Shown here one piece after another: positions 6,761-27,949 of a stretch of DNA of 29,082 nucleotides. This stretch comes from Candidatus Latescibacterota bacterium (lineage in GTDB: Bacteria; Latescibacterota; UBA2968; GCA-2709665). The stretch is from positions 1 to 29,082 of the forward strand of contig JAAXHE010000044.1 of NCBI GenBank assembly GCA_012271065.1, written 5' to 3'. Position numbers and translations under genes: made by a program. How positions within the stretch are numbered: position 1 is the first letter of the stretch; every line of letters begins with the position of its first letter. The notes below the pieces were generated by a model. The model was not told the origin of the DNA, did not search any database, and worked only from the letters and a program-made list of their open reading frames with translations.

Positions 6761-7653
6761 GCCGCCCTCCTTTTGACGCCCGACCGTTCCTGCGCGTTCC
6801 CGAACGCCGAGTTCACCATCCGCCCCGTCAGCACGCGCACCATCTCGCGCCTGAAGTCGGCCGATCCCCGAACGTCGCTGATCGGCCGGGCTTCCTCTGC
6901 CGCTGTCTCTGCCGCCCTCTCGATCAGCTCCCCGGTCAGGCGCTGTCCCTTCAGCATTCGCTCGGCGGCCTTCGCCCGAAGCGGCGTGGGCGCGACCGCG
7001 CCCAGCACGATACGCGCCTCCTGGCAGTCGCGAGTACGAGGCGCCAGCGTCACGGCCGCGCCCACACCCACCATCGCGATATCCATGGCGCCCCGGGGCG
7101 TATGTCGAACATAGGCGGATCCGGTTCGAGGAGGCGGAACAGGAACGTGAATGCCAACCACGAACTCGCCCGTTCCAAGTGTGGTCCGGCCCGGGCCGAC
7201 CATGAAATTCTCCACGAGCATCGTCCGACGTCCCTTCGGGCCGGCGATTTTCACCTTCGCGCCAACCACGATCAACCCCGGCGCCGCATCCGCGGAAGGC
7301 GCCGCATTGCAGATATTCCCCACGATCGTGGCGAGATTCCTGATCTGAAAGGAACCCACCACGCGGGCGCCCTCGGCGAGTCCGGTGTAGTGCAACTGTG
7401 CGGCCGGCATGAGTTCCACCTGACGCATGGTCACGGCCGCCCCGATCGTCAGCCCGGTCTTCCGGTCGAAACGGAGCTCGTCCACGCCCGGAATTCTCCT
7501 GACGTCCACCAGCGTATCGGGGGTCCGCGCCCGTTCCTTCATCTGCACCAGCAGGTCGGTCCCTCCGGCCAGCACCCTCGCACCGGGATGGGCCTGCAGC
7601 ACCTCGGCAGCCTCCCGAACCGTTTCAGGCGCGAAATATTCGAAGCGATTCAC
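6757..7653 (-). CDS. Molybdenum hydroxylase FAD-binding subunit (CoxM type)
   Basis: A 298-residue medium subunit that binds FAD and hands electrons to the final acceptor. Both FAD motifs are present: AGGTDLL at 29-35 and TIVGNICNAAPSAD at about 110-122, the second matching the family T-x-GGN/GN-x-x-x-A-x-P-x-A-D pattern. It ends with the CO dehydrogenase flavoprotein C-terminal domain (from about residue 180). It lies directly after the large subunit gene (4-base gap) and overlaps the small subunit gene by four bases, so the three are one operon. No family-typical iron-sulphur insertion is present, as expected for the non-fused, three-subunit form. It has no membrane segments and is cytoplasmic. 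Confidence 0.92.
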   Translation of the reverse strand: MNRFEYFAPETVREAAEVLQAHPGARVLAGGTDLLVQMKERARTPDTLVDVRRIPGVDELRFDRKTGLTIGAAVTMRQVELMPAAQLHYTGLAEGARVVGSFQIRNLATIVGNICNAAPSADAAPGLIVVGAKVKIAGPKGRRTMLVENFMVGPGRTTLGTGEFVVGIHVPVPPPRTGSAYVRHTPRGAMDIAMVGVGAAVTLAPRTRDCQEARIVLGAVAPTPLRAKAAERMLKGQRLTGELIERAAETAAEEARPISDVRGSADFRREMVRVLTGRMVNSAFGNAQERSGVKRRAA

Positions 7654-7657
7654 AACT

Positions 7658-9850
7658 TCAACCTCCTTTGCAGGCTTCCTGCAACGCCGCCACCACGCGC
7701 TCCGGTGTCATGGGCAGCTCACGGACCCTGGCTCCAACCGCGTCGTAGATCGCGTTTGCAACCGCGGCGCCACCGGGAATGATGGGCGGTTCACCCACGC
7801 CCTTGCCTCCATAGGGTCCGTGTTCGCAGGGGTCCTCGACCATAACCGTCTGGATGTTCGGCACGTCCAGCGCGGTCGGGATCGCATAGTCCAGCAGATT
7901 GGGATTCAGCATCCGACCCTTCTCGTCGTACCGGTATCCCTCCATGAGTCCGAAACCGATGGATTGTATGGCACCGCCCTGCATCTGACCCTCCACGAGC
8001 AGGGGATTGAGCGCGCGGCCCACGTCCTGGCCCGCCACGAGATCGAGGAGCCGCACCTGCCCCGTACCGGGGTCCACCTCGACGGTGGCGACGTTAACCG
8101 AATAGGAGGGGTAGGTGGGAACGCTGCTCAGCACGCACCGGCCGTTGACGGCGCCGCTGGACTCGATCGCTTCGGCGGCCAGTTCGCCAAGGCCGATGGC
8201 GTGGTCCGGCGAACCCACGATATGCACCCTCTGGTTCGTGACGACCAGGTCGTCAACGGCGGCCTCGAGCTTTTCGGCTGCCAGGCGCAACAACTGCTCT
8301 CTCGCCTCGCGTCCCGCCTCCCGCGCGGCGGTGCCGGCGGAATAGGCCGCTTTGCTTCCGGCGCTCAATGACGCGTAGGGGACCGTGTCCGTATCTCCCA
8401 GCCGGACCGTCACCATCTCGACGGGCGCCCCCATTTCCTCGGCCACAACCTGTGCCATCACCGTATGCAGACCTGTAATGTCGACCTGCCCGGTCACGAG
8501 GGCCACCGATCCATCCGCCGACATCGTAACGAACGCATTGGTCGGCCCGGATGCGTTGTGCCAGTCCCCCACCGCGATTCCCATGCCCTGGTTGGGTTTC
8601 AGTTCGCGACGGCCCCATCCCGCGGTCTCCGCGGTTTTTCGTATGGTGTCTTTCAGCCAGTCGTGCTGTATGAGCGGCTGATCGCCCTTGCCGAGCCCGT
8701 TCTTCAAGCGGAACTCCAACGGGTCGATCCCCAGCTTGTGGGCCACCATGTCCAGGTTGGACTCCCTGGCAAGCGCCGTCTGCGGTCCACCGGGCGCCCG
8801 ATACGCGCCCGGGCCCGGTTTGTTCGTTCGCACGGCCATGCCTTCCAGCCTGAAATTCGGAATCCTGTAGGGTCCCAGCAGACGGTTCGCGGCGCCTCCG
8901 CTGCCCATCACGCCCCCGTCCCACACAATTCGCCCCTCTACGGCCGTTACGGTCCCGTCCTTGCGCGCGCCTGTTTTCAACCGGACCCAGCAACCCGGGC
9001 CCGGGCGGCTGTCGCGAAAATCCTCCCCTCGGTTTATCGTTAGCCTCACGGGGCGGCCCGTGCGCATGGCCAGCAGCGCGGTGTGCGCTTCGATATTTAT
9101 GCGATTCTTGCCCCCGAAGCTGCCTCCGGTTTCGGTCATGATCACGCGTATGCGCCCCTCGGGGATGTTCAATGCTTCCGAGAGGCCTTCGCGTTTGGTG
9201 AACGTGCCCTGCCCCGCTGCCCATACCGTAAGCCTTCCGTCCGCTTCCACGCGCGCCGTGGCGGCGTTCGGCTCCATATAGGTCTGGTTGAAGAACGGAA
9301 CCTGATATTCCGCCTCGACGACTGCGTCTGCATCCGAGAAGCCCCGCTCGACGTCCCCCTCCTCCAGGACGTTGTAGGCCGTCACGTTCCGCAATCTGCG
9401 TCCATCCGGAGCCTTTACGTCCTCCGTCGGCGCCCCCAGCACGGCCTCGGGAGCGTCGGGGTCCATGGCGTCCACGGGATCCACGACCGCGGGCAGTACA
9501 TCATAATCCACCTCGATCAATGCGAGCGCGTCCTCTGCGATATCCGGATCCACGGCAGCCACCGCCGCCACCTTCTGACCCTGGTAGCAGACCTCTTTGC
9601 ACTCGAAAATTGACAGGTCGGGCACGTCCAGGCCGCACACCACGTCCACCACCCCGGGCAGCTCTTTGGCTCTGGAGGTATCGATTTTCAGAATGCGCGC
9701 GTGACCGTGCGGGCTGCGCAGAATGCGGCCGTACAGCATACCGGGAAGCTGGATGTCGTCGGCGTACTGAATCCGGCCCGTCACGATATCCGGCCCGTTC
9801 AGCCTGGCCACCCGCTGCCCTACGGATTTCAATTCGCGTGGGGCCTGCAT
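7658..9850 (-). CDS. Molybdenum hydroxylase large subunit (xanthine dehydrogenase/aldehyde oxidase family)
   Basis: A 730-residue molybdopterin cytosine dinucleotide-type catalytic subunit. I start at ATG 9850, which has GAGGAGGG close upstream; a TTG 39 bases earlier would only add a leader. The first domain (GQRVARLNGPDIVTGRIQYA, then DDIQLPGMLYGRILRSPHG) is the a/b hammerhead, and the molybdenum-binding domains follow with TETGGSFGGKN, AYRAPGGPQT and SLSAGSKAAYSAG. The catalytic glutamate is in GGKGVGEPP (E687), equivalent to the Glu of xanthine dehydrogenase. The AYxCSFR loop of true CO dehydrogenase is absent, so CO is unlikely as substrate. The enzyme should hydroxylate an aldehyde or N-heterocycle. 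No cofactor-insertion (XdhC/CoxF) gene is found in this window, so maturation factors must be elsewhere. Confidence 0.93.
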   Translation of the reverse strand: MQAPRELKSVGQRVARLNGPDIVTGRIQYADDIQLPGMLYGRILRSPHGHARILKIDTSRAKELPGVVDVVCGLDVPDLSIFECKEVCYQGQKVAAVAAVDPDIAEDALALIEVDYDVLPAVVDPVDAMDPDAPEAVLGAPTEDVKAPDGRRLRNVTAYNVLEEGDVERGFSDADAVVEAEYQVPFFNQTYMEPNAATARVEADGRLTVWAAGQGTFTKREGLSEALNIPEGRIRVIMTETGGSFGGKNRINIEAHTALLAMRTGRPVRLTINRGEDFRDSRPGPGCWVRLKTGARKDGTVTAVEGRIVWDGGVMGSGGAANRLLGPYRIPNFRLEGMAVRTNKPGPGAYRAPGGPQTALARESNLDMVAHKLGIDPLEFRLKNGLGKGDQPLIQHDWLKDTIRKTAETAGWGRRELKPNQGMGIAVGDWHNASGPTNAFVTMSADGSVALVTGQVDITGLHTVMAQVVAEEMGAPVEMVTVRLGDTDTVPYASLSAGSKAAYSAGTAAREAGREAREQLLRLAAEKLEAAVDDLVVTNQRVHIVGSPDHAIGLGELAAEAIESSGAVNGRCVLSSVPTYPSYSVNVATVEVDPGTGQVRLLDLVAGQDVGRALNPLLVEGQMQGGAIQSIGFGLMEGYRYDEKGRMLNPNLLDYAIPTALDVPNIQTVMVEDPCEHGPYGGKGVGEPPIIPGGAAVANAIYDAVGARVRELPMTPERVVAALQEACKGG

Positions 9851-9955
9851 CTCCTGCCCTCCTCGTTCTCGAATGTCGCAATTTGACAAGGTATCAGGAA
9901 TCCAATATCAAAAGTTAATACTCGCCGGGTAAAAGTCAATGGACAACATGAAGCG

Positions 9956-10156
9956 GTGAGACGTTAGACGGTAGAAGAAATGCGGGGAGACGGTAAAGGT
10001 GAGACGGAAGAAGAAGCCCTTACCCGATATGTCTTCCCTCCTTGCCTTAGGCATGAAAAGAATCCTGACAAGGCAGGCAATCTCTCCCCTCTCCCGTCTT
10101 CCTTCTCACCAGGTGGTGGGGTGTCGTCCTCTCACGTCTCACGTCTTACGTCTACC
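9956..10156. repeat. Degenerate inverted-repeat element overlapping the end of glcB
   Basis: The left side contains GTGAGACG, GTTAGACGGTAGA and GGTGAGACGGAAGA. The right side contains the reverse complements of the same words: TCTTCCTTCTCACC, CACGTCTCACGTCTTACG and GTCTAC. Near the centre TTGCCT (10042-10047) can pair with AGGCAA (10075-10080). The whole is an imperfect palindrome about 200 bases long built of short GTGAGACG-like units. No open reading frame of note lies inside. The right end supplies the last codons and the stop of glcB. It could be a miniature inverted-repeat element or a transcribed hairpin. Confidence 0.6.
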
Positions 10157-12324
10157 CGTTCTTTCACTTCCCGCCGCCGCTGGTGCAGCACCCGTTCGGT
10201 GTAGCCGTTCGGTTCCGCCACGCCCTCGAAGACCAGCTCCAGCGCGGCCTGGAACGCGACGCTTTTCACGAAGTCCGGCGCCATGTTCCGATAGTCCGGA
10301 TCTCCGCTGTTCTGTTCGTCCACCAATACCGCCATCTTTTCGAATGTGGTACGCACCTGTGCCTGGCTCACGATTCCGTGATGCAGCCAGTTGGCGATGT
10401 GCTGGCTGGAAATCCGCAGCGTCGCCCGGTCTTCCATCAGTCCCACGTCGTTGATATCGGGCACTTTCGAGCAACCCACGCCCTGTTCCACCCACCGCAC
10501 GACGTATCCCAGAATACCCTGGGCATTGTTGTCCAGCTCCCGCTGGATCTCGTCCTCCGTCAGGTCCCGGTCCAACAGCGGCGGCGTCAGGATTTCGTCC
10601 AGGCTCGCACGCTCCCGCCTGGCAAGCTCCGCCTGCCTTGCCGCCACGTCCACCCGGTGATAGTGCATGGCGTGCAGAACCGCCGCCGTGGGGGACGGCA
10701 CCCACGCCGTGCTTGCGCCGGCTTCCGGATGTCCGATCTTGGTTTCCACCATATCCCGCATCTCGTCCGGCATGGTCCACATCCCTTTCCCGATCTGACC
10801 CCGACCGCTGAAACCGGTGTCCACCCCCACGTCCACGTTCCAGTCCTCGTACGCCGCGAGCCAGGGTTGCGCCCTGATGTCCGCCTTCGGATGCATCGGA
10901 CCGGCCTCCATGCTCGTATGGATCTCGTCTCCGGTACGGTCCAGAAAACCCGTATTGATGAACACCACCCGATCCCTGGCCTCCCGGATCGCCGCCTTCA
11001 GATTCACCGTGGTCCGTCGCTCTTCGTCCATAATGCCGATCTTGATCGTATTCCGCTCCAGACCCAGCGCCGCTTCCACGCGTTCGAACAGGTCGATCGT
11101 GGCAGCGACCTCCGCGGGTCCGTGCAGCTTGGGTTTCACGACGTAGATGCTGCCCGATGCGCTGTTGACGAATTCCCCGTGTCGAATCAGATCGTGTTTG
11201 GCCGCAAGCGCGGTCACCATCGCATCCAGGAAACCCTCCGGGATTTCCGCCCCGTCGCTGGTTGTAACGCTATCGGTGTACATATGGATGCCGACGTTCC
11301 GGACCAGCAGGAGGCTGCGTCCCGGCAGGGTGAGTTTCCCCCCATCCGGCGCCGTAAACTCCCGGTCCGGATTCAGCCGCCGCGTCATCGGCCGGCCGCC
11401 CTTTTCGAAGGTCGTCTCCAGCGTGCCTCGCATGATGCCGTTCCAGTTCCCGTATACCCGTGCCTTGTCCTCGGCGTCAACGGCAGACACCGAATCCTCG
11501 CAATCCTGGATGGTCGTCACCGCCGCCTCCAGAAGAACGTCCTTGACCCCCGCCGGATGCGCGGCGCCCACCGGATGACCGCGGTCGATTCGGATTTCGA
11601 TGTGAAGACCGTTGTTTACCAGCAATACCGCGGAGAGTTCGCCCCCATCTCTCCGGTATCCGCGGAACTGATCGGGATCCGCCATGCCGACCTCTCCACC
11701 GACCCGAAGCGTCGCAATGAGTCGACCGACGCCGTCCTCTTCCTCAACCGCAAAGCGCGTGACCTCCGAGTATCGGCCGGATGCCAGACCCGCAACGTCG
11801 TCCAGAAACGCCTCGGCCGCGTCGATCACCTTCGCGCCGCGGACCGGATTGTAGGCCTCTTCCCTTTCGGCGCGGGGTTCCTCGGGAATGACGTTCGTTC
11901 CGTAAAGGGCGTCGTAAAGACTGCCCCAGCGCGCGTTGGCCGCATTGAGCGCATACCTGGCATTGTCCACTGGGACCACCAGCTGGGGGCCGGCCACCGT
12001 TGCGATTTCGGGGTCCACGCGGGCGGTGGTCAGCTCAAAGTGGTCTCCCTCCGGCGCCAGGTAGCCGATTTCAGCCAGAAAAGTCCGGTACTCCGCCCGG
12101 TCTATCGGCCGTCCCTTCCTCTCCAGGTACCACCGGTCCATCTTCTCCTGAATGCGGTCCCGATCTTCCAGCAACTCCCGGTTCCGGGCGCCCAGGGCCT
12201 GGACGATCTCTCCGAGCGCAGTCCAGAACGCATCCGGGTCGACATCCGTACCCGGGGCGATCTCGTCTCTGACCAAATTGTACAGGACCTCGCTTACCCT
12301 TAAACCGCCAATTTCAACAGCCAT
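10132..12324 (-). CDS. glcB: Malate synthase G
   Basis: A 730-residue enzyme condensing glyoxylate with acetyl-CoA to malate, cytoplasmic. The length fits the G isoform (about 720 residues). ATG 12324 has AAGGAG nearby and starts [16 protein letters not shown]; an earlier in-frame ATG six codons upstream has no such signal. Family blocks are clear: [63 protein letters not shown] (metal-binding Glu region), [18 protein letters not shown] and [18 protein letters not shown]. The last residues (RVDVRRET) are encoded by a GTAGACGTAAGACGTGAGAC-type repeat that also gives the stop codon, so the natural C-terminus seems to have been replaced. No isocitrate lyase gene is in the window; glyoxylate may come from glycolate or purine-type catabolism. 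Confidence 0.95.
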
Positions 12325-12470
12325 CGTTACGCTCCTTTTCACCTATGGAAAAACCGCGGCGGCGGTCAAGATAATCACAACAAAAGGGCGGCACAACAGG
12401 AAGTGTTCTTTCCCGAAAATACCTCGCCATCGGGTCGCGGATGCATCCCGCTGCGCGCCACGTCGCCTGG

Positions 12471-17443: not shown

Positions 17444-18811
17444 ATGTCCCCGGAAGACAAGGCCCGCCTCAAAGACCTCGACCGCCGCCTGGTGTGGCAC
17501 CCGTTCACGCAGATGCTCACCTACGCGAGCGAGGATCCCATTATCATCGCGCGCGCCGACGGCGTCTACCTGGAGGATATCGACGGCAACCGGTACCTCG
17601 ACGGCTACTCCTCAATGTGGTGCAACGTACACGGTCACCGCGTCAAGGAAATCGACGACGCCGTTCGCGGGCAACTGGACCAGGTCGCGCACAGCACCCT
17701 GCTGGGTCTTTCCAACATACCCGCGATCCGGCTGGCCGAAAAACTCGTGGAAATCACACCCCGCGGACTCGACCACGTGTTCTACTCGGACACCGGCGCG
17801 TGCGCCGTGGAAATTGCCCTCAAAATCGCCTTTCAGTACTGGCGGCAGAAGCCGGATCCGAAACAGGAGAAGACGAGTTTTCTCAGCCTTGAGAAGAGCT
17901 ATCACGGCGACACCATCGGCGCGATGAGCGTGGGAAACATCAACCTCTTCCACGAGGCGTACGGCCCGCTCCTCTTTCCGTCGCTGACCGCCCCGTCGCC
18001 CCATGAATTTCGCCGATCGGAGGGTGCGCGCCAGAATGAATGCGACCGAGGCAGTCTGCGCGCGGTCGAGGATATCCTCAAGCGGGAAGCCCACCGCATC
18101 GCCGCCTTCATCGTCGAGCCGCTCATCCAGGGCGCGGGCGGGATTCTGGTTCATCCGGAAGGCTATCTGAAAGGCGTCGCCGACCTCTGCAGGGACCACG
18201 ACGTCCTGCTCATCGCCGATGAAATCGCCACCGGCTTCGGCCGCACCGGCGCCATGTTCGCCTGCGAGAAAGAAGGCGTCGCGCCGGATATTCTCTGCCT
18301 GGGCAAGGGCATCACGGGAGGATACCTGCCCGTAGCCGCCACACTCACCACAGGTGAAATCTTCGATGCCTTTCTGGGCGAAGACAACGAAGGCCGGACG
18401 TTTTTTCACGGCCACACGTACACTGGCAATCCGCTCGGATGCGCGGCGGCGCTGGCCGCCATCCGGCACTTCGAAACCCATAACGTACTGGCGTCTCTGC
18501 GCCCGAAAGTCGAACTTCTCACGCAAGGACTCGGACGCTTCAGGACCCTGGCCCACGTGGACGACGTTCGCCAGTGCGGCTTCATCGCCGGGGTCGAACT
18601 GATTGCCGACAGATCCGGCGCCCGGCCGTATCCCCCCGAAGACAGGATCGGCGCCCGCGTCTGCGGCGAAGCCCGAAAACGGGGTCTTCTCATTCGCCCG
18701 CTGGGCGACACCATTGTCCTCATGCCGCCACTGTCCATTTCCGACCGCGAACTCGAAAAGCTGCTGGACATCGTCTACGAGTCCATCAGCGTCGTGACGA
18801 ACCAGGCGTGA
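17444..18811 (+). CDS. bioA: Adenosylmethionine-8-amino-7-oxononanoate aminotransferase
   Basis: A 455-residue PLP-dependent class III aminotransferase that makes 7,8-diaminopelargonate in biotin synthesis, normally with S-adenosylmethionine as amino donor. The BioA signature WHPFTQM is at the N-terminus, followed by [18 protein letters not shown] and [13 protein letters not shown]. The PLP aspartate is in [14 protein letters not shown] and the Schiff-base lysine in [16 protein letters not shown] (about residue 288). It is followed by bioD, which settles the identity against other class III enzymes. The ATG has no recognisable Shine-Dalgarno sequence in the T/C-rich leader, and I find no BirA-type operator. 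Whether the amino donor is SAM or lysine cannot be told by eye. Confidence 0.93.
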
Positions 18812-18848
18812 TCGCAGCCGGGCCCCCCGCCCGCGCGCCACTGTTGAA

Positions 18849-18868
18849 AGGCCGCCTGACGGCGGCCT
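18849..18868 (+). terminator. GC-rich hairpin between bioA and bioD
   Basis: AGGCCGCC (18849-18856) and GGCGGCCT (18861-18868) form a perfect 8-base stem with loop TGAC. It lies 38 bases after the bioA stop. No T run follows, so it is probably a pausing, processing or mRNA-stability hairpin rather than a full terminator; bioD follows 60 bases later. Confidence 0.45.
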
Positions 18869-18927
18869 GATGCGTATTCACGACATTCCCGGCCGGACTC
18901 GTCCGACTTGACGGAAAACTAACGACT

Positions 18928-19617
18928 ATGGGATTCAGGGGAGTCTTCGTTACCGCCACGGACACCGGCGCGGGCAAAACAGCCGTTACCGCCGGGATCG
19001 CGGCATTATTGCGCGGACGCGGCGTCGACGTGGGCGTATTCAAGCCCGTCTCCTCGGGCGGAACGGCCGACGCGCGGCTTCTGTCAAAGGCAGCCGGCGT
19101 CACGGATGCTCTCGAACTCGTCAATCCCGTCCGCCTCGAAGCGCCGCTATCGCCCAACGTAGCGGCCGAACTGGAAGGCCGCCAGATTCCGCTGGAACCC
19201 ATCGACGATGCCTACAGCCGCCTGACACGCCTTCACGATATCGTCCTGGTGGAGGGTGTGGGCGGCCTGCTGGTACCCATCCGGGAAGACTTCCTGGTCG
19301 CGGACCTTGCCCGCCGTCTGGACCTGCCGCTGCTGGTCGTCGCCCGCGCCGCGCTGGGCACGATCAACCACACGATGCTGACGCTCGAAGCGGCGGACAG
19401 ACGCAATCAGGAGGTCATCGGTGTCGTCTACAACACCACCGGCCCCGGAGATCCGCGTGCCGCCCGCACCAGCCCGGAAGTGATATCCCGACTGTCCGGC
19501 GTCCGCTCCCTGGGCATCGTGCCCTACGATCCCGGCGTGGACGTGGACGCCGGAGACACCGGATGCCTGTCCGGCCTCATTGAACAACACGTGGACCTGG
19601 ACGGCGTCTTCTTCTGA
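18928..19617 (+). CDS. bioD: Dethiobiotin synthetase
   Basis: A 229-residue ATP-dependent carboxylase closing the ureido ring of dethiobiotin. The P-loop is ATDTGAGKT (residues 10-18), close to the family GTDTGVGKT with Ala for the first Gly. KPVSSG (39-44) has the lysine that contacts the substrate, and VEGVGGLLVP is the conserved BioD motif. ARAALGTINHTMLTLEA matches the dimer/substrate region. The ATG follows a purine run (GGAAAAC) without a strong ribosome site. The gene ends 43 bases before the convergent ether-lipid dehydrogenase gene, with no clear terminator between them. bioB and bioF are not in the window, so the pathway is split in this genome. Confidence 0.93.
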   Translation: MGFRGVFVTATDTGAGKTAVTAGIAALLRGRGVDVGVFKPVSSGGTADARLLSKAAGVTDALELVNPVRLEAPLSPNVAAELEGRQIPLEPIDDAYSRLTRLHDIVLVEGVGGLLVPIREDFLVADLARRLDLPLLVVARAALGTINHTMLTLEAADRRNQEVIGVVYNTTGPGDPRAARTSPEVISRLSGVRSLGIVPYDPGVDVDAGDTGCLSGLIEQHVDLDGVFF

Positions 19618-19660: not shown

Positions 19661-20470
19661 CTACTCCCCCTTCTCCTGCTTCGACACCCCGCGCGTGACC
19701 AGGTATTCGACAATTTTCGGATTGATCAGATGCAGCCAGGGCAGGAATCGGAGCTTGAACGGAATGATCAACTCGCGTTTTCGTTTCTTCATCGCTTCGA
19801 TGATGGCCTCGCTGGCGTCGTCCAGAGAAATGGACTCTTTGCTGTGCTTGCGGCTGGACCCGCCAAGAGAACCGCCGTCCCTGCCGAAGGCCGCTTTGCG
19901 CAGATTCGTGCCCCGCAGCCAGTGGGGCAGAACCGTCAGCACGTCCACGCCAGTGTCCAGCAACTCCGTCCGCAGAGACTCGAAGAATCCCTGCACCGCG
20001 TGCTTGGACGCCACGTACCCTGTATGCAGGGGTACGCCGATCTTTCCCTGGATGGAAGAAATCGCCACCACCATCCCGTCACGCGCCTTCAGATGGGGGA
20101 GCGCATAATACACGCAGTGTACAATGCCCAGATAGTTCGTTTCCATCAACTTGCGGAAAATCGCCACGTCCTCCACCTCGTCAAACCGCGCCCACATGCT
20201 GATCCCTGCGCAGGCTACCAGGTAGTCCACGGCGCCGAGCTCGGAAACCGCCGCGTCGATCCATGCCTTACAGTCGTCGGGTTTTCCCACATCGCCCGTG
20301 GCCGTAATGGCGCGGCTGCCCCGCTCTCGACACGCTTCCGCGGTATCCTGTACCCCCTCGTCCAGTGCGAACAGCGCCACGTCCGCGCCCTCATCCGCGA
20401 ACGCCAGCGCCAGTGTTGCCCCAAGGCCCGATGAAGCGCCGGTTATCGCGACGACTTTATCATTGAACAT
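19661..20470 (-). CDS. Short-chain dehydrogenase, candidate acyl/alkyl-DHAP reductase
   Basis: A 269-residue classical SDR. TGASSGLG (10-17) binds the nucleotide, ACAGIS replaces the NAG motif, and the catalytic set is Ser in ISS (138-139), Tyr152 and Lys156 (YVASK). Where most SDRs have PG-x-x-x-T it has LPHWLRGTNLR. The C-terminal 35 residues (KKRKRELIIPFKLRFLPWLH, then LINPKIVEYLVTRG) form a basic, hydrophobic tail suited to membrane attachment, like the tail of animal DHRS7B (PexRAP), the acyl/alkyl-DHAP reductase. GGAAGG precedes ATG. As last gene of the ether-lipid set it would reduce alkyl-DHAP to alkyl-glycerol 3-phosphate. SDR family membership is firm; the substrate is inferred from context. 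Confidence 0.8.
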   Translation of the reverse strand: MFNDKVVAITGASSGLGATLALAFADEGADVALFALDEGVQDTAEACRERGSRAITATGDVGKPDDCKAWIDAAVSELGAVDYLVACAGISMWARFDEVEDVAIFRKLMETNYLGIVHCVYYALPHLKARDGMVVAISSIQGKIGVPLHTGYVASKHAVQGFFESLRTELLDTGVDVLTVLPHWLRGTNLRKAAFGRDGGSLGGSSRKHSKESISLDDASEAIIEAMKKRKRELIIPFKLRFLPWLHLINPKIVEYLVTRGVSKQEKGE

Positions 20471-20505
20471 ACGCGACCTTCCAGGTCAGATTGAACCTTC
20501 GCTCA

Positions 20506-20580
20506 CACAAAGGCACGAAGACACAAGGGGAAACCGGTAACAGCCAAAAGGCGGGCAACCACAAGGGTTGCCCCTACTGG
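20506..20580. repeat. Dispersed-repeat-like hairpin between AGPS and SDR genes
   Basis: Two blocks are present. CACAAAGGCACGAAGACACA and a few G follow at 20506-20530. At 20553-20573 GGGCAACC and GGTTGCCC form a perfect 8-base stem with loop ACAAG, flanked by CCTAC. From memory, both words recur as interspersed repeats in many environmental bacterial genomes. On the minus strand the hairpin starts directly at the AGPS stop codon, whose TAG is part of the repeat's GTAGGGG edge. It may attenuate or stabilise the operon transcript. Confidence 0.65.
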
Positions 20581-22424
20581 TCCGTTCCCCCAAACACGCC
20601 ATTCCGGATCCCGAAGATGTTGTTCGGATCCATCGCGTTTTTCGCCTGGCGCATAACCTGCATGCTGTTATCGGTCTGGATCTGCGGGAGGAAATCCCTT
20701 CTCACCTTGCCAACGCCGTGGTGGTGTGACAACGACCCCCCGTTGTCCAGGATAACCTGCCGCAACTGGTGTTCGATCGCGTGAAACGTCCGGCCGGGTT
20801 GTTCCAGGCCCTTGCCGTAGATGCCCATGGTGAAATAGATGCAGACGCCGGTATGATAGGTTTGCGTCACTCTGTACGAAAGATAGGGCTTGCCCGGGAC
20901 GCCGTGTCTGCCGGCCTGGGCGACCAGTTCGCCGGAGACCGCATCGCACACCTGGTGGATCCGGTCCCAGGGCACCGACGTCTCAAAGGTTTCGCCCAGA
21001 ATGCCGTACTGGTTCAGAAAGTCTCTAATGTAGGCGATGCCGAACGTAAGCGAGTATCCTCGCTTGCCGTTACTCGCGCCCGCGCTCTTGGCGCCGTACT
21101 CCTTCGCCAGGCTGAAGATCGTGCGTTCCTGCTGGCCGACCTCGTCGTTCGTGCCCTCCATCACGATGGTGCATGCCGCCATCTTCATCGGATCGAAACC
21201 CAGCACCTTCAACAGGACGAACTTCTGAAGCCGTTCCTTGACGCCCTTCAGGAATTTCGGCGCCGGTTTCAGGGCCTGGCCGAACCGGAACTCATTATTG
21301 TTGACCAGGCGGATGCTCGCGGGCAGCATCCCGGTCTGCCGTAGCGCCTTCAGGTACGCGACGCCCTTCTCGAATGCCGGAAACACAAGCGCTCCGTACC
21401 TGCGCGTCTCCGGGATCGGATGAATCTTGATCACCGCCGTAGTGATAATACCGAAATTGCCTTCGCTGCCGAACAGCAGGCCCCTGGGCTGAACGCCCGT
21501 GGAATTCCTCGGTGTCACCGCGCGGGTCGCAATCTCCCCGGTAGGCGTTACCAGCGTCGCCTCGAGTACAATATCCTCTATATTACCGTAACGGTTCTTC
21601 TTCATCCCGCTCGCGTTGGTTGAGATCCACCCGCCCATCGTGGAGAGTTCCACGCTGTCGGGATCGTGCCCCGACGTATACCCCCGCTCCCCCAATACCC
21701 GCTCCAGCGACTTTCCGGATATGCCTGCTTCGACGCACGCCTGCAGATTCTCCTCGTCGATCCAGAGAACCCGGTCCATCCGCCGCATATCCACGGACAC
21801 AATCGTGCGCCGCTCGTCGGGCGGACACGCCAGCGCCCCGCTCACATTCGTCCCTCCGCCGTAGGGCACCAGGCAGACGTCGTGCTCGTTAGCCAGGTCG
21901 ATCATGGCCTTTACATCCGCCTCTTCCGCCGGATAGAACACCAGATCGACCAGCCTGGGCAGTGAATCCCCGTACATCACCCTGTACACTTCTTCAACGC
22001 TCAGCTGCCCGTGGCTGTGCACGAGCCTGGCTTTGGAATCGAATGAAACCTGCCCGTCTCCGAACCGTTCTTTCAGCGCGTTGCCGAAAGCGGCGTCGAG
22101 ATTCGGCTCGGGCGCCTCGACGTCCTCGCGTTCCGCGTACGAGTCTTCCCGTCGGATTGTAATCCCCAACACGTCCTCCACAAAGTCCAGCAGAAACGGC
22201 ATCCGATACCCCGAAATCGGGTACCTGCTCCCGGTTACCTTCACCGTCCGATCGTCTACAAACTCGAACCGCGTATCCGTGTATCCCCACTTGTGGGGGA
22301 ACCGTTCTCCTTCCGAATGATCGAAGAAATCATCCGTTTCGTTTCCGGATCGCCTCCGGTTCGACAGGTGCGCAAACACCAGGACAACCGCTACGGCAAC
22401 CGCTGCTAATCCCCAATCAGACAT
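20574..22424 (-). CDS. agpS: Alkyldihydroxyacetonephosphate synthase (AGPS)
   Basis: A 616-residue FAD enzyme that exchanges the acyl chain of acyl-DHAP for a fatty alcohol, forming the ether bond. Residues 4-20 form a membrane anchor. The FAD domain has PYGGGTNVSGA (187-197), and the family stretch from TSGHDPDSVELSTMGG to SGMKKNRYGNIED (250-284) is nearly identical to my memory of animal AGPS. The active site is kept: R372 in SIRLVNN, R467 in YIRD, Y530 in CIYF and the H567-H569 triple in GSLSHHHGVGK. Y530 and H569 are 39 residues apart, as are Tyr578 and His617 in the mammalian enzyme. The end DPNNIFGIRN is also typical. GGAG precedes ATG. These details separate it from glycolate or lactate oxidases of the same fold. 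Confidence 0.93.
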   Translation of the reverse strand: MSDWGLAAVAVAVVLVFAHLSNRRRSGNETDDFFDHSEGERFPHKWGYTDTRFEFVDDRTVKVTGSRYPISGYRMPFLLDFVEDVLGITIRREDSYAEREDVEAPEPNLDAAFGNALKERFGDGQVSFDSKARLVHSHGQLSVEEVYRVMYGDSLPRLVDLVFYPAEEADVKAMIDLANEHDVCLVPYGGGTNVSGALACPPDERRTIVSVDMRRMDRVLWIDEENLQACVEAGISGKSLERVLGERGYTSGHDPDSVELSTMGGWISTNASGMKKNRYGNIEDIVLEATLVTPTGEIATRAVTPRNSTGVQPRGLLFGSEGNFGIITTAVIKIHPIPETRRYGALVFPAFEKGVAYLKALRQTGMLPASIRLVNNNEFRFGQALKPAPKFLKGVKERLQKFVLLKVLGFDPMKMAACTIVMEGTNDEVGQQERTIFSLAKEYGAKSAGASNGKRGYSLTFGIAYIRDFLNQYGILGETFETSVPWDRIHQVCDAVSGELVAQAGRHGVPGKPYLSYRVTQTYHTGVCIYFTMGIYGKGLEQPGRTFHAIEHQLRQVILDNGGSLSHHHGVGKVRRDFLPQIQTDNSMQVMRQAKNAMDPNNIFGIRNGVFGGTDQ

Positions 22425-22510
22425 AACGGACTCCAGACGACCGCAGGCGGCCGTACCATACGTTTGCGACAGCGCAATTCAATGACGGTTGTTCGGGACG
22501 TCCCGACGCA

Positions 22511-24451
22511 TCACCGGGACGGCTCCGGATTCAGCAGATTGGAAATATGCACCGCCTGGAGCAGGTTGGCGGCTTCCAGCTGGATTCGCAGCGACCGGCG
22601 TCGGGGCAGCAACGTGGTCTCGCCCGGCATAGGGGGCAGGATCACCGCCTCGATCACACCCGGATTGATATTCAGATTGCGCGCCGGGCACTTCGGCCAC
22701 AGCGCGTGGCTGCCCCGAAAGACGATGGGAATCATCACCACGTCCTGGGGGAGCTTCGCGAACAGCGCGTGCTGGAGCGGGAACAGCTGTACGTCGAACG
22801 AAGCCGTTGTTCCCATCGGATAGATCACACCGGGGCGGCGTTCCATCTCCTGCAGGATGCGTGGAATCGTATGGGATGAGATATCGACGCTGTCTCTGGT
22901 GATAAAGCCGTCCACGGTCTCGAACATCCTGTCGAATTTGTCCGGGGACATTCCGAAGATGCTGATCTCGCGGGACCCGATTTTCACCGACGTCGACTTC
23001 GCCAGTCCCGTGCGTGCCAGCTGAACCACCGGGCGGGAACGGTCCCACCCCATCGCATCCAGAAACACCGGGTCATTGAAAACCGAAAACACAACGAAAT
23101 GTTCCAGCATGCTCTGATGTGAGGGCAGGAACAGGATCCTCTGGCCGCCACTGGAAAGGTCCATCTCCCTGACAAGCGTCCGGAACATCGGGGCTATCGT
23201 CACTTCCAGCCGGATGCCGAAGGCATTCATCGTGTCGCGGGACCAATCCAGCCAGACCTCCCATGCGCGCTCATGCCGCATTGACGGCGTGAGATCCTCC
23301 TCTGCGATGCGTTTCCGGCGCCGCCCGACCCGCCAGCAGCGCCTCGCCCAGCGCAACATCCGGATTTTGCGCTGGAAGGACGTCAGTTCCTCCGTTACGC
23401 CGACGTGAGCATATTCCAGGAATCGACCCGTATGGGCACCGGCCAGCAGCGGAGGGAGCGCCACTTCAGCCGATCCGTCCCCGTTTCGAACCGCCGAATT
23501 CACCGCATCAACAATCCGGACGCTCAGATCGATCATATCCCGTGTCAGATAACTGTACGGCTGCCCGTACCAGTAGTTCGCCGGCCTCAGCCGGGCGGGG
23601 TCCTCCCGGTGCGCCGCGAGAAACTCCACGAGCATACTCCGGCACAGGTTGACGTCGGCCTTCAGGGTTGCCAGGCCCTCCGCGTCCGAATCCTCCATCT
23701 GATGCAACCGCACATCGGCGTCGGCGACCACCTTCCATACCGAACTGCCGAACCATCCCAGGTTATTGTACGTGTTGTAGCGCGTGGCGAGAAGCTCCCC
23801 GGCGGAAATCAGGTGCAACGTCCGCTGCGCCACGTTTTCCAGGAGTTCACGGAGGGTGCCATTCCATGTTTCGCCATTCACGTCGCAGGCGTATTCGAAC
23901 TGCCAACGCGGATCTTCGTCCGTTTCCACGGTGGGCAGCGCTTCCGCAACGGCCCTGGCGTGAGACAGCGGTACCCGTGAAATCCTGGCCTGTGCCAGCG
24001 CTGTCTCGGCCCGGTCGGGAGAGAAATCGTCGCCCTTTGCAAGTGCCTCAACGTAGAGAGACTGGTACAGCTTCAGGAAATCCGAGCCCGTTCCTGCGCC
24101 GCTGCCCACAAACTCATCCCGCAGCCGCAGGTAGATCCGGTTCCCCTCGTGGTAAGCCGGCGTCAATTCAATGAAATGGTCGTGCGCCTCCCTGAGACGC
24201 CGGTCCCGCAACGCCGGGACGCCGTTATAAATCGCATCCACGATTCGCGCGCCCTTAAGCAGTCCTTCAAGGCCGATCTGATCCGCGCCGTGGGACGGCC
24301 ACGTCAGCTCCTCGGCCGTCCAGCCCTCGAAATAGCCTTCGGGCCGGACCGCTTCGATCAACTCCGAGGCAGCCTGATCATATGCTGCACGCAGTTTGCC
24401 CGGATCCCGCAACAGCAGCTGGTGCATTGGGATTTTCTTGTTTCGATCCAT
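22511..24451 (-). CDS. PlsC-superfamily acyltransferase, candidate DHAP acyltransferase
   Basis: A 646-residue protein from ATG 24451 (weak AGGCG upstream; an in-frame start 66 bases earlier adds an arginine-rich leader). Residues 1-420 are mostly helical and match nothing I recognise. Residues about 435-600 resemble glycerolipid acyltransferases: LPSHQSMLEHF (443-452) aligns with the H-x4-D block, IYPMGTTAS (543-551) with the EGTR block and IPIVFRGSHALWP (574-586) with the V/I-P-I block. But the acid of motif I is Glu (H445/E450), and EGTR reads MGTT. With AGPS downstream and a fatty alcohol-forming reductase upstream, the expected job is making acyl-DHAP, as GNPAT does in animals. Family assignment is moderately sure; substrate is inferred. 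Confidence 0.7.
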   Translation of the reverse strand: MDRNKKIPMHQLLLRDPGKLRAAYDQAASELIEAVRPEGYFEGWTAEELTWPSHGADQIGLEGLLKGARIVDAIYNGVPALRDRRLREAHDHFIELTPAYHEGNRIYLRLRDEFVGSGAGTGSDFLKLYQSLYVEALAKGDDFSPDRAETALAQARISRVPLSHARAVAEALPTVETDEDPRWQFEYACDVNGETWNGTLRELLENVAQRTLHLISAGELLATRYNTYNNLGWFGSSVWKVVADADVRLHQMEDSDAEGLATLKADVNLCRSMLVEFLAAHREDPARLRPANYWYGQPYSYLTRDMIDLSVRIVDAVNSAVRNGDGSAEVALPPLLAGAHTGRFLEYAHVGVTEELTSFQRKIRMLRWARRCWRVGRRRKRIAEEDLTPSMRHERAWEVWLDWSRDTMNAFGIRLEVTIAPMFRTLVREMDLSSGGQRILFLPSHQSMLEHFVVFSVFNDPVFLDAMGWDRSRPVVQLARTGLAKSTSVKIGSREISIFGMSPDKFDRMFETVDGFITRDSVDISSHTIPRILQEMERRPGVIYPMGTTASFDVQLFPLQHALFAKLPQDVVMIPIVFRGSHALWPKCPARNLNINPGVIEAVILPPMPGETTLLPRRRSLRIQLEAANLLQAVHISNLLNPEPSR

Positions 24452-24564
24452 AAATCGCCTGTCGTGAAAGAGACCGAAAGACCGCCTATGCCTGGTTCGG
24501 ATTCGCCCCGTTCGCATCCCCGTCGGATAAACTCACGACTGATGACGATCCTGAATCCCAAACC

Positions 24565-26211
24565 TCAATTGTGCGGTCCGTCGGCTTCGGCGGCCACCAC
24601 GGAAACCGCCCCATCCCCCTCTTTCAATACATGGTGTTTCAATCCCGGGATGTGGATCTCCTGGATGTACTCCGGCCAGTTGATGCGCGTCACGTCGAAG
24701 TTGAACACCTTCTGATCTTCGGGATTCAGCGCCTGGTACAGCCGGCGCGTATTCTCCGTTTCGAACTCGCAATCGAGGTGAGTGTACCCACAATAGGTAT
24801 CGACCAGGGACTCAAGCCGCGCCAGAACGGCCTCCATGCCGGTTACCCGGCGCCTGTAACGGGAAACCCATCGTGCGGGCAGATAGTCCACGGCAGCCTT
24901 CAACAGGCCAAGCGGAAGCTTGTACTTCAGTGCGACCAGACAACGGAACCGCCGCTGGCTGATGAACTGCCAGGGCCTGACGTGGATGGGCCGCCCGCTT
25001 CGGTCCTGCATGGGCGAAGATTTGAAATACCCGTAAACAAGCTCGACCATTTCACTCGCCAGAACCGGATTCTGCGAACCCGAGGCCACATGGTAGACCT
25101 TCATCTCCTCCGACCCGTGTACTTGCGGAAGAACCGCCGTAACGGCGTTGTTCAGGACGTCGACGGGTATGATATCCAGCACAATTCCGGGATCGATCGG
25201 GAAATTCGACAGCCGGCCCTTGCCATAGTGGACGATCAGCGGGTCGGCGACTTTCAAATCCTCCACCCAGCCGGGTACCGGGTCCTCGAGGCTGCTCTCC
25301 ACGATTGACGGCCGGACGATGGCCGTTGGAAGGTCTCCCCGAGACTTCACGATCATCTGCTCACCCATCGCCTTGGTGAGCGTGTAGCTGTCGTTCCAGC
25401 CGTGGCGCCTCGCACGCCGCATCCCTTCGTCCACCAGCTGCTTCCGGATCCAGCGCTGGCGAAGGGCTTCTACCTGGTGGGCCTTCCGGTAGTCGGTAAC
25501 GCGTTTTCCACGGTCCTGCCGCCGGAGCTGCTTCAGGAACGCCGCCTCGAGGTCGGGCTTTCTGGATGCCTCCTCGACTTCCCGGGTGAAAGCCCGGATG
25601 GCGTCGATCTCGCCCTGCAGGTCGAAGCCGGCGGCGCTTCCGTTGATGAGGTCCGAAACGCTCCGGTCCTGGGGAAACGGCGCTTCGGGTATCCGACCGG
25701 TGCGCTTTCCGCTCACGTACGCGGTTGATACATGAACGAGCGCGGCTTTCCGGCAGGCCTTCGCGAAGGTGACGACGCGGGCGGCGCCCATTGCATTCTG
25801 TTCGAGTGCGCTGTCGATGGGCTCGTCGAATACAACCGTTCCGGCGAAATTGACGACAAAATCGACGTCCTCGACAAGACACTTGCGCTGATCGGCGGCA
25901 ATCCCCAGCCCGTCTTCGGTCAGATCGCCGGCGACCGCGACGAGCTTATCCGCCATCACGGCGGAAAACGCCCCACCCCACCTCTCACGCAGCCTTTCGA
26001 ACGCGCGGGACTGAAGGATTTCGGTCTCCAGGCGTTCCGCGTCGGAGACAAGCTGCCCGTTGGAGCGCGACCGCGGCCGGATCAGGAGATAGATCCGCGC
26101 CACCTCGGGCGCGGAATACAGGATCTTCTCCACGAATCCCTTCGCCAGAAAGCCCGTCGCGCCGGTCACAAACAGCGTCTTGCCGCTGAGATACTCTGCA
26201 ATGGACTGCAT
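24565..26211 (-). CDS. Fatty acyl-CoA reductase, alcohol-forming (FAR1-like)
   Basis: A 548-residue protein reducing fatty acyl-CoA (or acyl-ACP) to fatty alcohol with NADPH. I start at ATG 26211, since MQSIAEYLSGKTLFVTGATG aligns with the FAR1 N-terminus as I remember it; 14 earlier in-frame residues are charged and non-conserved. Rossmann motif GATGFLAK (17-24), STAYVSGKRTG (162-172), and catalytic YTLTK (276-280) are present. The C-terminal FAR_C (sterile) domain ends in FNFDVTRINWPEYIQ, the family mark. A basic helical insertion (about 222-270) is longer than in animal FAR1. It is the first gene of the cluster and supplies the alcohol for the AGPS reaction. Other products (wax esters) are possible, but no wax synthase gene is near. 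Confidence 0.9.
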   Translation of the reverse strand: MQSIAEYLSGKTLFVTGATGFLAKGFVEKILYSAPEVARIYLLIRPRSRSNGQLVSDAERLETEILQSRAFERLRERWGGAFSAVMADKLVAVAGDLTEDGLGIAADQRKCLVEDVDFVVNFAGTVVFDEPIDSALEQNAMGAARVVTFAKACRKAALVHVSTAYVSGKRTGRIPEAPFPQDRSVSDLINGSAAGFDLQGEIDAIRAFTREVEEASRKPDLEAAFLKQLRRQDRGKRVTDYRKAHQVEALRQRWIRKQLVDEGMRRARRHGWNDSYTLTKAMGEQMIVKSRGDLPTAIVRPSIVESSLEDPVPGWVEDLKVADPLIVHYGKGRLSNFPIDPGIVLDIIPVDVLNNAVTAVLPQVHGSEEMKVYHVASGSQNPVLASEMVELVYGYFKSSPMQDRSGRPIHVRPWQFISQRRFRCLVALKYKLPLGLLKAAVDYLPARWVSRYRRRVTGMEAVLARLESLVDTYCGYTHLDCEFETENTRRLYQALNPEDQKVFNFDVTRINWPEYIQEIHIPGLKHHVLKEGDGAVSVVAAEADGPHN

Positions 26212-26656
26212 ATCATCCCGACGTGGACAAAAAACCCGTTTCCCCGGCCTCATAAGTCAGGCGCAGGATTCCGGAAGAATCTCCGTCATTGTTCTTCCGT
26301 CATCGCGCCGCGAGGTCGAGTGAACGGGACGTCATAAAATCGCTAAATCGCAATAACCAATGGCAACCGTAAACCGCACGACCGGTGTTCGTTTACCAGA
26401 CAAGGAAGGAAAGCCAAGATCCGCTTCGAGTCAAGGGAAATCTGCCGCACATACAGGGCGCCAGGCACTGATGCCGGCCTGAAACCTCCGAGCGTCCACG
26501 TCGCGATCTTGCAATCACGATTGATCCTGACTATATTAGCAGCAGAACGAGGAATCAAGCCCGAACTGCGGTACCGTATTGCCATCATTCGGTCAATGTA
26601 TAATCTTTAAATATAGTATCTTATATCCAAACCATCAGTGACAATAGCGTGCGACA
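26212..26656. other. Divergent intergenic region between ether-lipid and restriction-modification genes
   Basis: No convincing gene is seen in these 445 bases. Small frames (for instance a 40-codon one at 26360-26482) lack ribosome sites. The right part is AT-rich, with a promoter-like pair at 26509-26537 and a TATAAT at 26599-26604. No clear promoter was found for the minus-strand FAR gene. Confidence 0.6.
26509..26537 (+). promoter_or_regulatory. Putative promoter of the methyltransferase gene
   Basis: TTGCAA (26509-26514) and TATATT (26532-26537) are separated by 17 bases and lie about 115 bases upstream of the methylase ATG. A perfect TATAAT occurs closer in (26599-26604), but without a good -35 box at proper distance. 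Either could serve. Confidence 0.4.
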
Positions 26657-27949
26657 ATGAAGGATTTAAACAAACTCCGAACCGAAGACAGAGCCGTTCA
26701 TGACTGGTACCGGTTCGTCCTGTCATTTCCGCCTCATCTGGTCCGTGAGTATCTTGACCGGTTCGATGTCCAACCTTATCACACCGTACTGGATCCATTC
26801 TGCGGTACGGGAACCACGACCGTTGAGTGCAAGAAACTCGGAATCGGCAGCATTGGAATCGAGCCGAATCCGATGGCGTATTTCGCAAGTTCGGTGAAGG
26901 TCGACTGGACGGTAAATCACAAGGAATTGCTTGAGTACGCGGAAGAGGTAGCGCTATATACTAAGAAAACTCTGGAAGAAAACGGCTTTGGCGAGTGGAA
27001 GGATCTACCGCTTTTCGCGCAAAACGGTATTCCGAATATCATATTGAAGCAACTTCCCGATGAACAGTCGAGAATCCTGTTGAAGGACTCCATCAGCCCC
27101 CGTCCCCTGCACAAAGCGCTCGTACTTCTGGATGCAATCGACCGGGAAGGAGGTCCTCATCTCCAGCGATACGGCCGCCTCTGTCTTGCCAACGCGCTCG
27201 TGCATCGAATTGGTAATCTGAAATTCGGGCCGGAAGTCGGGGTCGGGAAAATCAAGAATGATGCACCTGTCGTGGGGGCTTGGCTGGAATGCATTCGCAC
27301 GACTGTCCGCGATATCCGCCGATATGGTGACCGGGCACAAATCGGCAGCCGGATTATCAACGCAGATGCCCGCAGCGTCGAAAACATCCTGAAACCGGGT
27401 TCGGTCGATTTTGTAATTACATCGCCGCCATATCCGAACGAGAAGGATTACACGAGGACGACCCGCCTGGAGTCGGTCATACTTGGCATGATCAGGAACA
27501 GGCAAGAGTTGAGGACGTTGAAACAAAACCTGGTCAGGTCCAACACGCGCGGAGTGTACAAAGCCGACACAGACGACCGGGAGATCGCGGACAATCCTAC
27601 AATACGCAATCTTGCGGATGAAATTGAAAAACGCCGTATCGCTCTGGGTAAGACATCAGGTTTCGAGCGTCAGTACTCCCGCGTCACTCTGCTTTACTTC
27701 GGGGGAATGGCGAAGCATCTGGCGTCGCTTCGGCCCGCTCTCAAATCTGGCGCAAAGCTCGCTTACGTGGTGGGTGACCAGGCATCCTATCTTCGGGTGA
27801 TGATCAGAACGGGCGAACTCCTGGCCGGCATCGCCAAATCCCAGGGTTATAACGTCACCGGAATCAATCTGTTTCGTACCAGGCCATCAACGGTGACAGG
27901 CGAACAGCTCAGGGAAGAGGTTGTGACGCTGGAATGGCCGGGTGATTGA
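26657..27949 (+). CDS. Site-specific DNA methyltransferase (N4-cytosine/N6-adenine type)
   Basis: A 430-residue DNA methylase. The SAM-binding motif DPFCGTGTT (46-54) comes before the catalytic motif TSPPYPNEKDY (255-265), so the motif order is that of gamma-like, non-permuted amino-methylases. SPPY favours N4-methylcytosine, though N6-adenine cannot be ruled out. The long stretch between the two motifs (about 55-250) probably holds target-recognition sequence. GIEPNPMAYF just after motif I is the acidic loop that binds SAM. The ATG has no clear Shine-Dalgarno sequence. It is followed in the same frame, after one TGA, by a probable restriction endonuclease. Base composition is more AT-rich than the upstream genes, consistent with horizontal gain. 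Confidence 0.88.
   Translation: MKDLNKLRTEDRAVHDWYRFVLSFPPHLVREYLDRFDVQPYHTVLDPFCGTGTTTVECKKLGIGSIGIEPNPMAYFASSVKVDWTVNHKELLEYAEEVALYTKKTLEENGFGEWKDLPLFAQNGIPNIILKQLPDEQSRILLKDSISPRPLHKALVLLDAIDREGGPHLQRYGRLCLANALVHRIGNLKFGPEVGVGKIKNDAPVVGAWLECIRTTVRDIRRYGDRAQIGSRIINADARSVENILKPGSVDFVITSPPYPNEKDYTRTTRLESVILGMIRNRQELRTLKQNLVRSNTRGVYKADTDDREIADNPTIRNLADEIEKRRIALGKTSGFERQYSRVTLLYFGGMAKHLASLRPALKSGAKLAYVVGDQASYLRVMIRTGELLAGIAKSQGYNVTGINLFRTRPSTVTGEQLREEVVTLEWPGD

Follow-up and report, generated by a model that had tools for sequence, protein, structure and literature searches.

The window analysed here, a 29,082-nt stretch of DNA from a Candidatus Latescibacterota bacterium, carries on its minus strand four genes that encode, in transcription order, a FAR1-like fatty acyl-CoA reductase (FAR), an acyltransferase of a family without a name in Pfam (AT), an alkyl-dihydroxyacetone-phosphate (alkyl-DHAP) synthase (AGPS), and a short-chain dehydrogenase/reductase (SDR). 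We consider it likely that this cluster is an AGPS-type ether-phospholipid operon leading to 1-alkyl-glycerol-3-phosphate, and that AT serves in addition as the initiating sn-1 acyltransferase of the class to which the organism belongs (genomes G001-G047 in our set, with G001-G004 representing the genus of the window).

In the proposed pathway FAR would reduce acyl-CoA to a fatty alcohol, AT would acylate the C1 hydroxyl of DHAP to yield acyl-DHAP, AGPS would exchange the acyl group for the alcohol to give 1-alkyl-DHAP, and SDR would reduce the ketone to 1-alkyl-sn-glycerol-3-phosphate, the sn-2 position of which would then be acylated by a PlsC-type enzyme encoded elsewhere in the genome. In its second role AT would replace PlsX/PlsY, and acyl-DHAP may also feed ester lipids via direct reduction by SDR. 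We infer every substrate and product of this scheme, as well as the general role of AT, from the comparisons described below.

Protein families of the four genes

The AGPS gene (20574..22424) encodes a protein with the Pfam domains FAD_binding_4 and FAD-oxidase_C, which matches the solved peroxisomal AGPS (PDB 4bby, which we take to be the guinea pig enzyme) with an E-value of 1.9e-151 over residues 45-608, with 242 of the 560 aligned residues identical (43%). A second solved AGPS (2uuu, presumably from Dictyostelium) is matched with E 4.3e-85 and the best non-AGPS protein with 2.9e-25, i.e. the similarity is far above that to GlcD-like proteins and other FAD oxidases, and it identifies a full-length member of the AGPS family. 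Residues H253, R372, R467, Y530 and H567-569 of the window protein align with H300, R419, R515, Y578 and H615-617 of 4bby, which we take to be active-site residues, and all are identical. In the residue alignments of relatives (best match per locus above a set bit score, window included; 41 rows for AGPS, 35 for SDR, 20 for FAR) each of these seven positions is conserved in at least 40 of the 41 AGPS rows, the sole exception being a gap. A comparison with 4bby at 18 positions found 15 identical (8 of the 11 beyond the seven), with differences at 211, 220 and 244. By family the protein is unmistakably an alkyl-DHAP synthase, and acyl/alkyl exchange is its predicted reaction.

Its first ~20 residues (window 22350-22424) are strongly hydrophobic, which reads as a putative membrane anchor. 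The closest named AGPS homologs, at 92-94% identity, come from three metagenome-assembled genomes (MAGs) labeled Gemmatimonadota (RHO bins, a label that may point to a sponge host) and one labeled Candidatus Latescibacterota (277c_44). Genome G027 contains (locus L078) a second type of AGPS, 47% identical to that of the window and with no SDR match nearby; a search with this sequence retrieved 6206 proteins, the named organisms among the best 120 being Blastocatellia, Pyrinomonadaceae or Acidobacteria, and the G027 form is possibly the result of a separate transfer. In G029 a second piece of AGPS (C113:41864-42862), 65% identical over residues 8-341, accompanies the full protein and may be a duplicate, a strain variant or a binning mix.

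FAR, encoded by the open reading frame (ORF) 24565-26253, contains PF07993 (NAD_binding_4, 9.9e-63) and PF03015 (Sterile, 2e-16), which makes it a member of the FAR1 type, and matches a fatty acyl-CoA reductase of known structure (7eoz) with E 7.5e-94. Nearly full-length matches from outside the genus of the window begin at residue 6-18, and therefore the start is best placed near residue 15 (likely gene 24565..26211), as the preliminary description of this DNA had proposed. The SDR (19661..20470) matches adh_short (4.9e-45), and its best curated model is the generic SDR family PRK06181.1 of NCBIfam (282 bits versus a cut-off of 215). Y152 and K156 are present in all 35 aligned rows and Ser139 in at least 90% of them, in keeping with the Ser-Tyr-Lys signature of SDRs, while the adjoining Ser138 varies (24 S, 10 A, 1 G). 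In a PDB search with this sequence, DHRS7B was not named among the best 60 of 545 matches. At the family level the protein is a classical SDR, and these matches do not confirm the DHRS7B-like tail named in the preliminary description; we propose for it the role of an alkyl-DHAP (and acyl-DHAP) reductase. In relatives SDR is also found downstream of AGPS.

AT (ORF 22511-24517) shows no Pfam family and no PDB sequence match, even up to E 10. Its structure model (mean pLDDT 90.9) contains a PlsC fold at residues 378-668, and the characteristic acyltransferase motif appears as HX4E in the window protein and as HX4D in 99 of 121 aligned sequences; fold and motif together place it in the PlsC-fold superfamily. 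The remainder of the protein, outside the PlsC-aligned part, is a large N-terminal helical domain (~30-360), for which the search with the whole model gave no convincing structural match, a separate search with the domain not having been made. Since residues 2-19 are missing from 119 of the 121 aligned sequences, the start is probably Met23 (likely gene 22511..24451). The label "PlsC-superfamily acyltransferase" given earlier to this protein thus holds for the fold and the HX4(D/E) motif, but a GNPAT is not recognizable by sequence: membership of the window protein in GNPAT/PlsB was rejected on the lack of any Pfam (PF01553, GPAT_C) or PDB match. PF01553 touches AT in four genomes of the group f4 only, in three of them above the cut-off. 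An alignment-based search found 136 proteins at E <= 0.001, and the named ones among the best 120 of these belong to groups already seen; the search scored only candidates sharing exact words, so remote relatives may be missed, and the family is apparently class-specific.

With the likely starts, the four genes are separated by 113, 86 and 103 bases, and a single transcript is therefore plausible. We regard them as a probable operon; a scan of the locus for promoters and terminators revealed nothing decisive.

Conservation of the cluster and gene content of the class

Comparison of order and strand in 40 AGPS loci of relatives revealed the arrangement FAR-AT-AGPS-SDR in 20 of them, including L062 (FAR cut at the contig end), L076 (broken AGPS and AT frames) and L077 (divergent AGPS and SDR). 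In each of these loci AT precedes AGPS on its strand, at a distance of at most 0.5 kb in 19 and of 1.9 kb in L053. In a 21st locus, that of G002, AGPS-SDR is located at a contig end and FAR-AT are adjacent at the start of another contig; in G014, outside the 40 compared loci, FAR-AT also lies at a contig start. The order of four genes on one strand given in the preliminary description is confirmed for the window, and its recurrence speaks against a chance arrangement; 19 loci of f4 that depart from it are discussed below. All four genes are shown to be under purifying selection by the estimated dN/dS of 0.069-0.227 between the window and four relatives (bioD being close, with 0.087-0.243), dS approaching saturation (1.5-2.0) for the most distant of the four. 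In L076 (genome G012) the matches to AGPS and to AT are both split in two, which resembles a frameshift or an assembly error. In L077 a protein of the acyl-CoA-synthetase type with an AMP-binding domain is encoded upstream of FAR.

We searched for the presence or absence of these and other lipid genes in 64 genomes of the phylum, 47 of the class and 17 of the rest (G048-G064). AGPS was counted above 240 bits, fragments included and weaker matches (GlcD-like paralogs, small fragments) dropped, as were the matches below cut-off of PlsX (25.0 bits in G006; a second one in G055) and GlpK and the weak matches to FAR in G048, G049 and G053. AT is present in 46 of the 47 class genomes, the single absence being G028 (75% complete), FAR in 45 (absent from G040 and G045), AGPS in 42 (absent from G014, G031, G032, G037 and G040) and SDR, at E <= 1e-40, in 37 (absent from G014, G022, G025, G027, G028, G029, G031, G032, G037 and G040). 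AT, AGPS and SDR were found in none of the 17 remaining genomes, where FAR gave only the three weak matches.

The reverse distribution is seen for the usual enzymes of the first steps: PlsY and GpsA have no match in the class versus 12 of 17 in the rest for each, and PlsX above cut-off is found in 0/47 versus 15/17. The same searches were positive in 8 (PlsY), 10 (GpsA) and 8 (PlsX) of 14 control genomes, and four class genomes (G008, G011, G038, G047) are single contigs; the absence of PlsY, GpsA and PlsX is therefore not due to assembly gaps. The counts for class versus rest may reflect a single evolutionary event rather than 47 independent ones. CDP-alcohol phosphatidyltransferases are found in all 64 genomes and PF01553 proteins in 47/47 of the class and 15/17 of the rest. 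Exactly one PF01553 match is present in 17 of the 21 genomes of f1 and f2 (G001-G021), in open frames of 223-300 aa, the size of PlsC, which leaves AT as the one further protein of the superfamily seen in those genomes. This holds for the genus of the window, where one PF01553 protein (open frames of 252-300 aa) and AT are the PlsC-superfamily proteins seen. Because AGPS needs acyl-DHAP, and G001-G004 show a single PF01553 protein besides AT, AT is the predicted acyl-DHAP maker.

Role of AT and competing explanations

Since PlsX and PlsY were not found in the class, AT is probably its general first acyltransferase, more than an ether-lipid gene. The earlier claim that the cluster encodes the full set for 1-alkyl-glycerol 3-phosphate gains support from family membership, the AGPS active site and synteny, and needs amending in that AT would not be dedicated to ether lipids. 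Going further, we tentatively entertain, at somewhat less than even probability, a reading in which the whole class acylates DHAP by AT and then reduces the product by SDR to make ester lipids, with ether lipids formed via AGPS. This reading includes a total loss of GpsA, PlsX and PlsY, and the stereochemistry of the backbone would be set by an acyl/alkyl-DHAP reductase instead of glycerol-3-phosphate dehydrogenase. Entry via DHAP is favored by the lack of GpsA in the 47 genomes, and by G038 and G047, single contigs that have also neither GlpK above cut-off nor a DAO_C (GlpD-type) match.

A number of observations weigh against the proposed role of AT and SDR or against entry via DHAP. The region of motif III in AT reads YPMGTT, which departs from the usual sequence of this motif in PlsC proteins. 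In the other 19 AGPS loci, all from f4, neither FAR nor AT is near AGPS; 14 of them have an SDR match in the AGPS locus, and the neighbors of AT scanned in f4 and in the genus g14 (G031, G032, G037 and G040) encode a transposase, esterase-like protein, GFO/IDH oxidoreductase, DUF4159 and several proteins without a family, with no consistent partner. In five genomes that have AGPS (G022, G025, G027, G028 and G029) no SDR reaches E <= 1e-40; an SDR with 27% identity adjoins AGPS in G022, and contig ends and the scoring of the best 40 candidates may explain some of these absences, not clearly those in G027 or G029. In the four g14 genomes AGPS and SDR (at E <= 1e-40) are missing together, which in itself favors the proposed pathway, but AT persists without them. 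AT and AGPS are therefore not coupled in this genus, and no acyl-DHAP reductase was identified in it. GlpK is found above cut-off in 30 class genomes and in two of the rest (two further class genomes hold large GlpK fragments that fall short of it), so free glycerol 3-phosphate (G3P) can come from glycerol in most of the class. Finally, PgsA-like proteins occur above cut-off in G001 and G038 (115.6 versus 109.1 bits in G038), and in the latter this protein and the prolipoprotein diacylglyceryl transferase Lgt imply phosphatidylglycerol, hence some free G3P, despite the lack of GpsA and DAO_C matches and of GlpK above cut-off.

These facts bear on a serious but less likely alternative, according to which AT, an ordinary glycerol-3-phosphate acyltransferase, took the place of PlsX/PlsY, and bulk lipids still start from G3P that glycerol kinase, uptake or turnover provides. 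The AGPS branch would then be accessory, with acyl-DHAP coming from a side activity of AT; what differs from the favored DHAP pathway is the main substrate of AT. GlpK, the PgsA-like proteins, which need free G3P, Lgt in G038 and the retention of AT in g14 all favor entry via G3P. This alternative has to contend with the position of AT upstream of AGPS in all 20 four-gene loci, with the demand of AGPS for acyl-DHAP in a genus that shows one PF01553 protein besides AT, and with G038 and G047, where GlpK above cut-off, DAO_C and GpsA are all missing. AT may accept both DHAP and G3P. The stricter idea of a DHAP-only route without any free G3P was rejected as a firm claim on the basis of the PgsA-like protein and Lgt in G038. 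As to the glycerol kinase itself, it is found above cut-off in 20 of the 21 genomes G001-G021, with a GlpD-type match among them in G021 only (8/47 in the class and 1/17 in the rest), and glycerol-derived G3P would therefore not feed glycolysis via such a GlpD; the neighbors of the glycerol kinase gene in G001 do not form a glycerol operon.

It is unlikely that the cluster makes something other than a membrane ether phospholipid, e.g. alkyl-glycerol signaling lipids, neutral ether lipids or a secreted natural product. Such products have precedents: sponge symbionts carry ether-lipid-like clusters of the nonribosomal peptide synthetase (NRPS)-like kind that are regarded as natural-product clusters (PMC9426513), and Myxococcus xanthus makes the alkyl-diacylglycerol lipid TG-1 (PMC9131029). 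The recurrence of the cluster genes throughout the class argues against this, as do the direct neighbors with Pfam matches in the window, which are bioD and a methylase-like gene, and the lack of any NRPS or transporter family among the 20 window ORFs scanned. Still less probable, in our estimation hardly to be expected, is that FAR serves the formation of waxes or plasmalogens by supplying fatty alcohol or aldehyde, its adjacency to AGPS being incidental. FAR-type enzymes do act in several pathways. The plasmalogen desaturase PF10520 (CarF/PEDS1) has no match in the 64 genomes, but none in the 14 controls either, and is thus uninformative; against an incidental association speak the need of AGPS for a fatty alcohol and the 20 of 40 loci in which FAR precedes both AT and AGPS in transcription order.

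Relation to known systems and neighboring genes

The favored ether-lipid pathway comprises the same four kinds of step as that of animal peroxisomes (FAR1, GNPAT, AGPS and PexRAP/DHRS7B). The likeness extends to AGPS, which shares 43% of the aligned residues with the solved animal enzyme, among them the presumed active-site residues, and to FAR with its FAR domains; in contrast, AT is no GNPAT recognizable by Pfam or PDB sequence, the reductase can be placed only as an SDR, and the genes are clustered and bacterial. In metabolic terms AT would occupy the position of sn-1 acylation by PlsX/PlsY or PlsB. PlsY lies outside the PlsC-fold superfamily, to which AT belongs, and AT has the large N-terminal helical domain beyond its PlsC-aligned part.

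An operon of M. xanthus has been described that comprises AGPS (MXAN_1676), a fusion of FAR1-like and GNPAT-like parts (MXAN_1675) and a putative NAD-dependent epimerase/dehydratase (MXAN_1674), and loss of MXAN_1676 is stated to have a minor effect only (PMC9131029). A compact bacterial set for these steps, called unusual in the preliminary description, has accordingly been published before. As far as that description allows a comparison, the window differs in having FAR and the acyltransferase in separate ORFs, in the Pfam-unnamed AT, and in the lack of detectable GpsA, PlsX and PlsY in the class. Another relative is ElbD of myxobacteria and sponge symbionts: in G038, the f4 genome in which the FAR protein was scanned, a 1406-aa protein combines FAR, AMP-binding and acyltransferase domains in the order described for ElbD, with no acyl carrier protein domain found by Pfam. 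Of the 23 FAR matches in f4, 21 fall within open frames of 983-1508 aa and two within frames of 553 and 559 aa, whereas in f1-f3 (G001-G022) FAR is stand-alone, unlike ElbD, with open frames of at most 598 aa. The gene of the G038 fusion lies beside those of Lgt and of an FMN oxidoreductase-like protein (L090:3885-10317 for the group), and a link of lipoproteins to ether lipids is conceivable.

According to published work, AGPS homologs are present in 67 and ElbD homologs in 50 of 92 Latescibacterota MAGs from the Black Sea (PMC11868695), elbD-like clusters are known in sponge symbionts (PMC9426513), alternative acyltransferases for phosphatidic acid include the mycobacterial PlsM and PlsB2 (PMC10593935), and one survey names GpsA as the principal G3P dehydrogenase of bacteria, seemingly missing from Atribacteria and Caldiserica alone (PMC5059525). 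Bacterial AGPS, the myxobacterial FAR/acyltransferase/AGPS operon, AGPS in Latescibacterota and elbD-like clusters are already known. Our literature search, which covered titles and the starts of abstracts among the papers listed, with subscription journals mostly outside it, revealed no report of the AT family or of the absence of GpsA, PlsX and PlsY in Latescibacterota, and did not meet the separate four-gene order; these three features, the absence being class-wide, are apparently new.

If AT initiates lipid synthesis, an unnamed family, encoded in many genomes inside an ether-lipid cluster, would carry out a step for which bacteria usually employ PlsX/PlsY or PlsB, and if the favored reading is true, the cluster genes may belong to the main membrane-lipid route of the organism. 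If AT works on DHAP, bacterial membranes could begin in the manner of peroxisomal ether lipids, and GpsA would not be required for the G3P stereochemistry of the "lipid divide". None of the genes is unusual in size, and E. coli, of which plsB, plsX/plsY and gpsA mutants exist, would allow a direct test.

Beyond the 3' end of SDR the other strand carries bioD and bioA (window 17444-19617), which adjoin SDR in this way also in the nearest relatives (L039, L040, L042 and L043). Upstream of FAR and divergent from it is a DNA methylase-like gene (26657-27949; N6_N4_Mtase, 4.2e-11), around which the GC content drops to 0.535 versus ~0.61; this stretch is possibly acquired DNA. Farther away the window encodes molybdopterin dehydrogenase/xanthine-dehydrogenase-type subunits (6757-9889) and a malate synthase-like protein (10132-12342).

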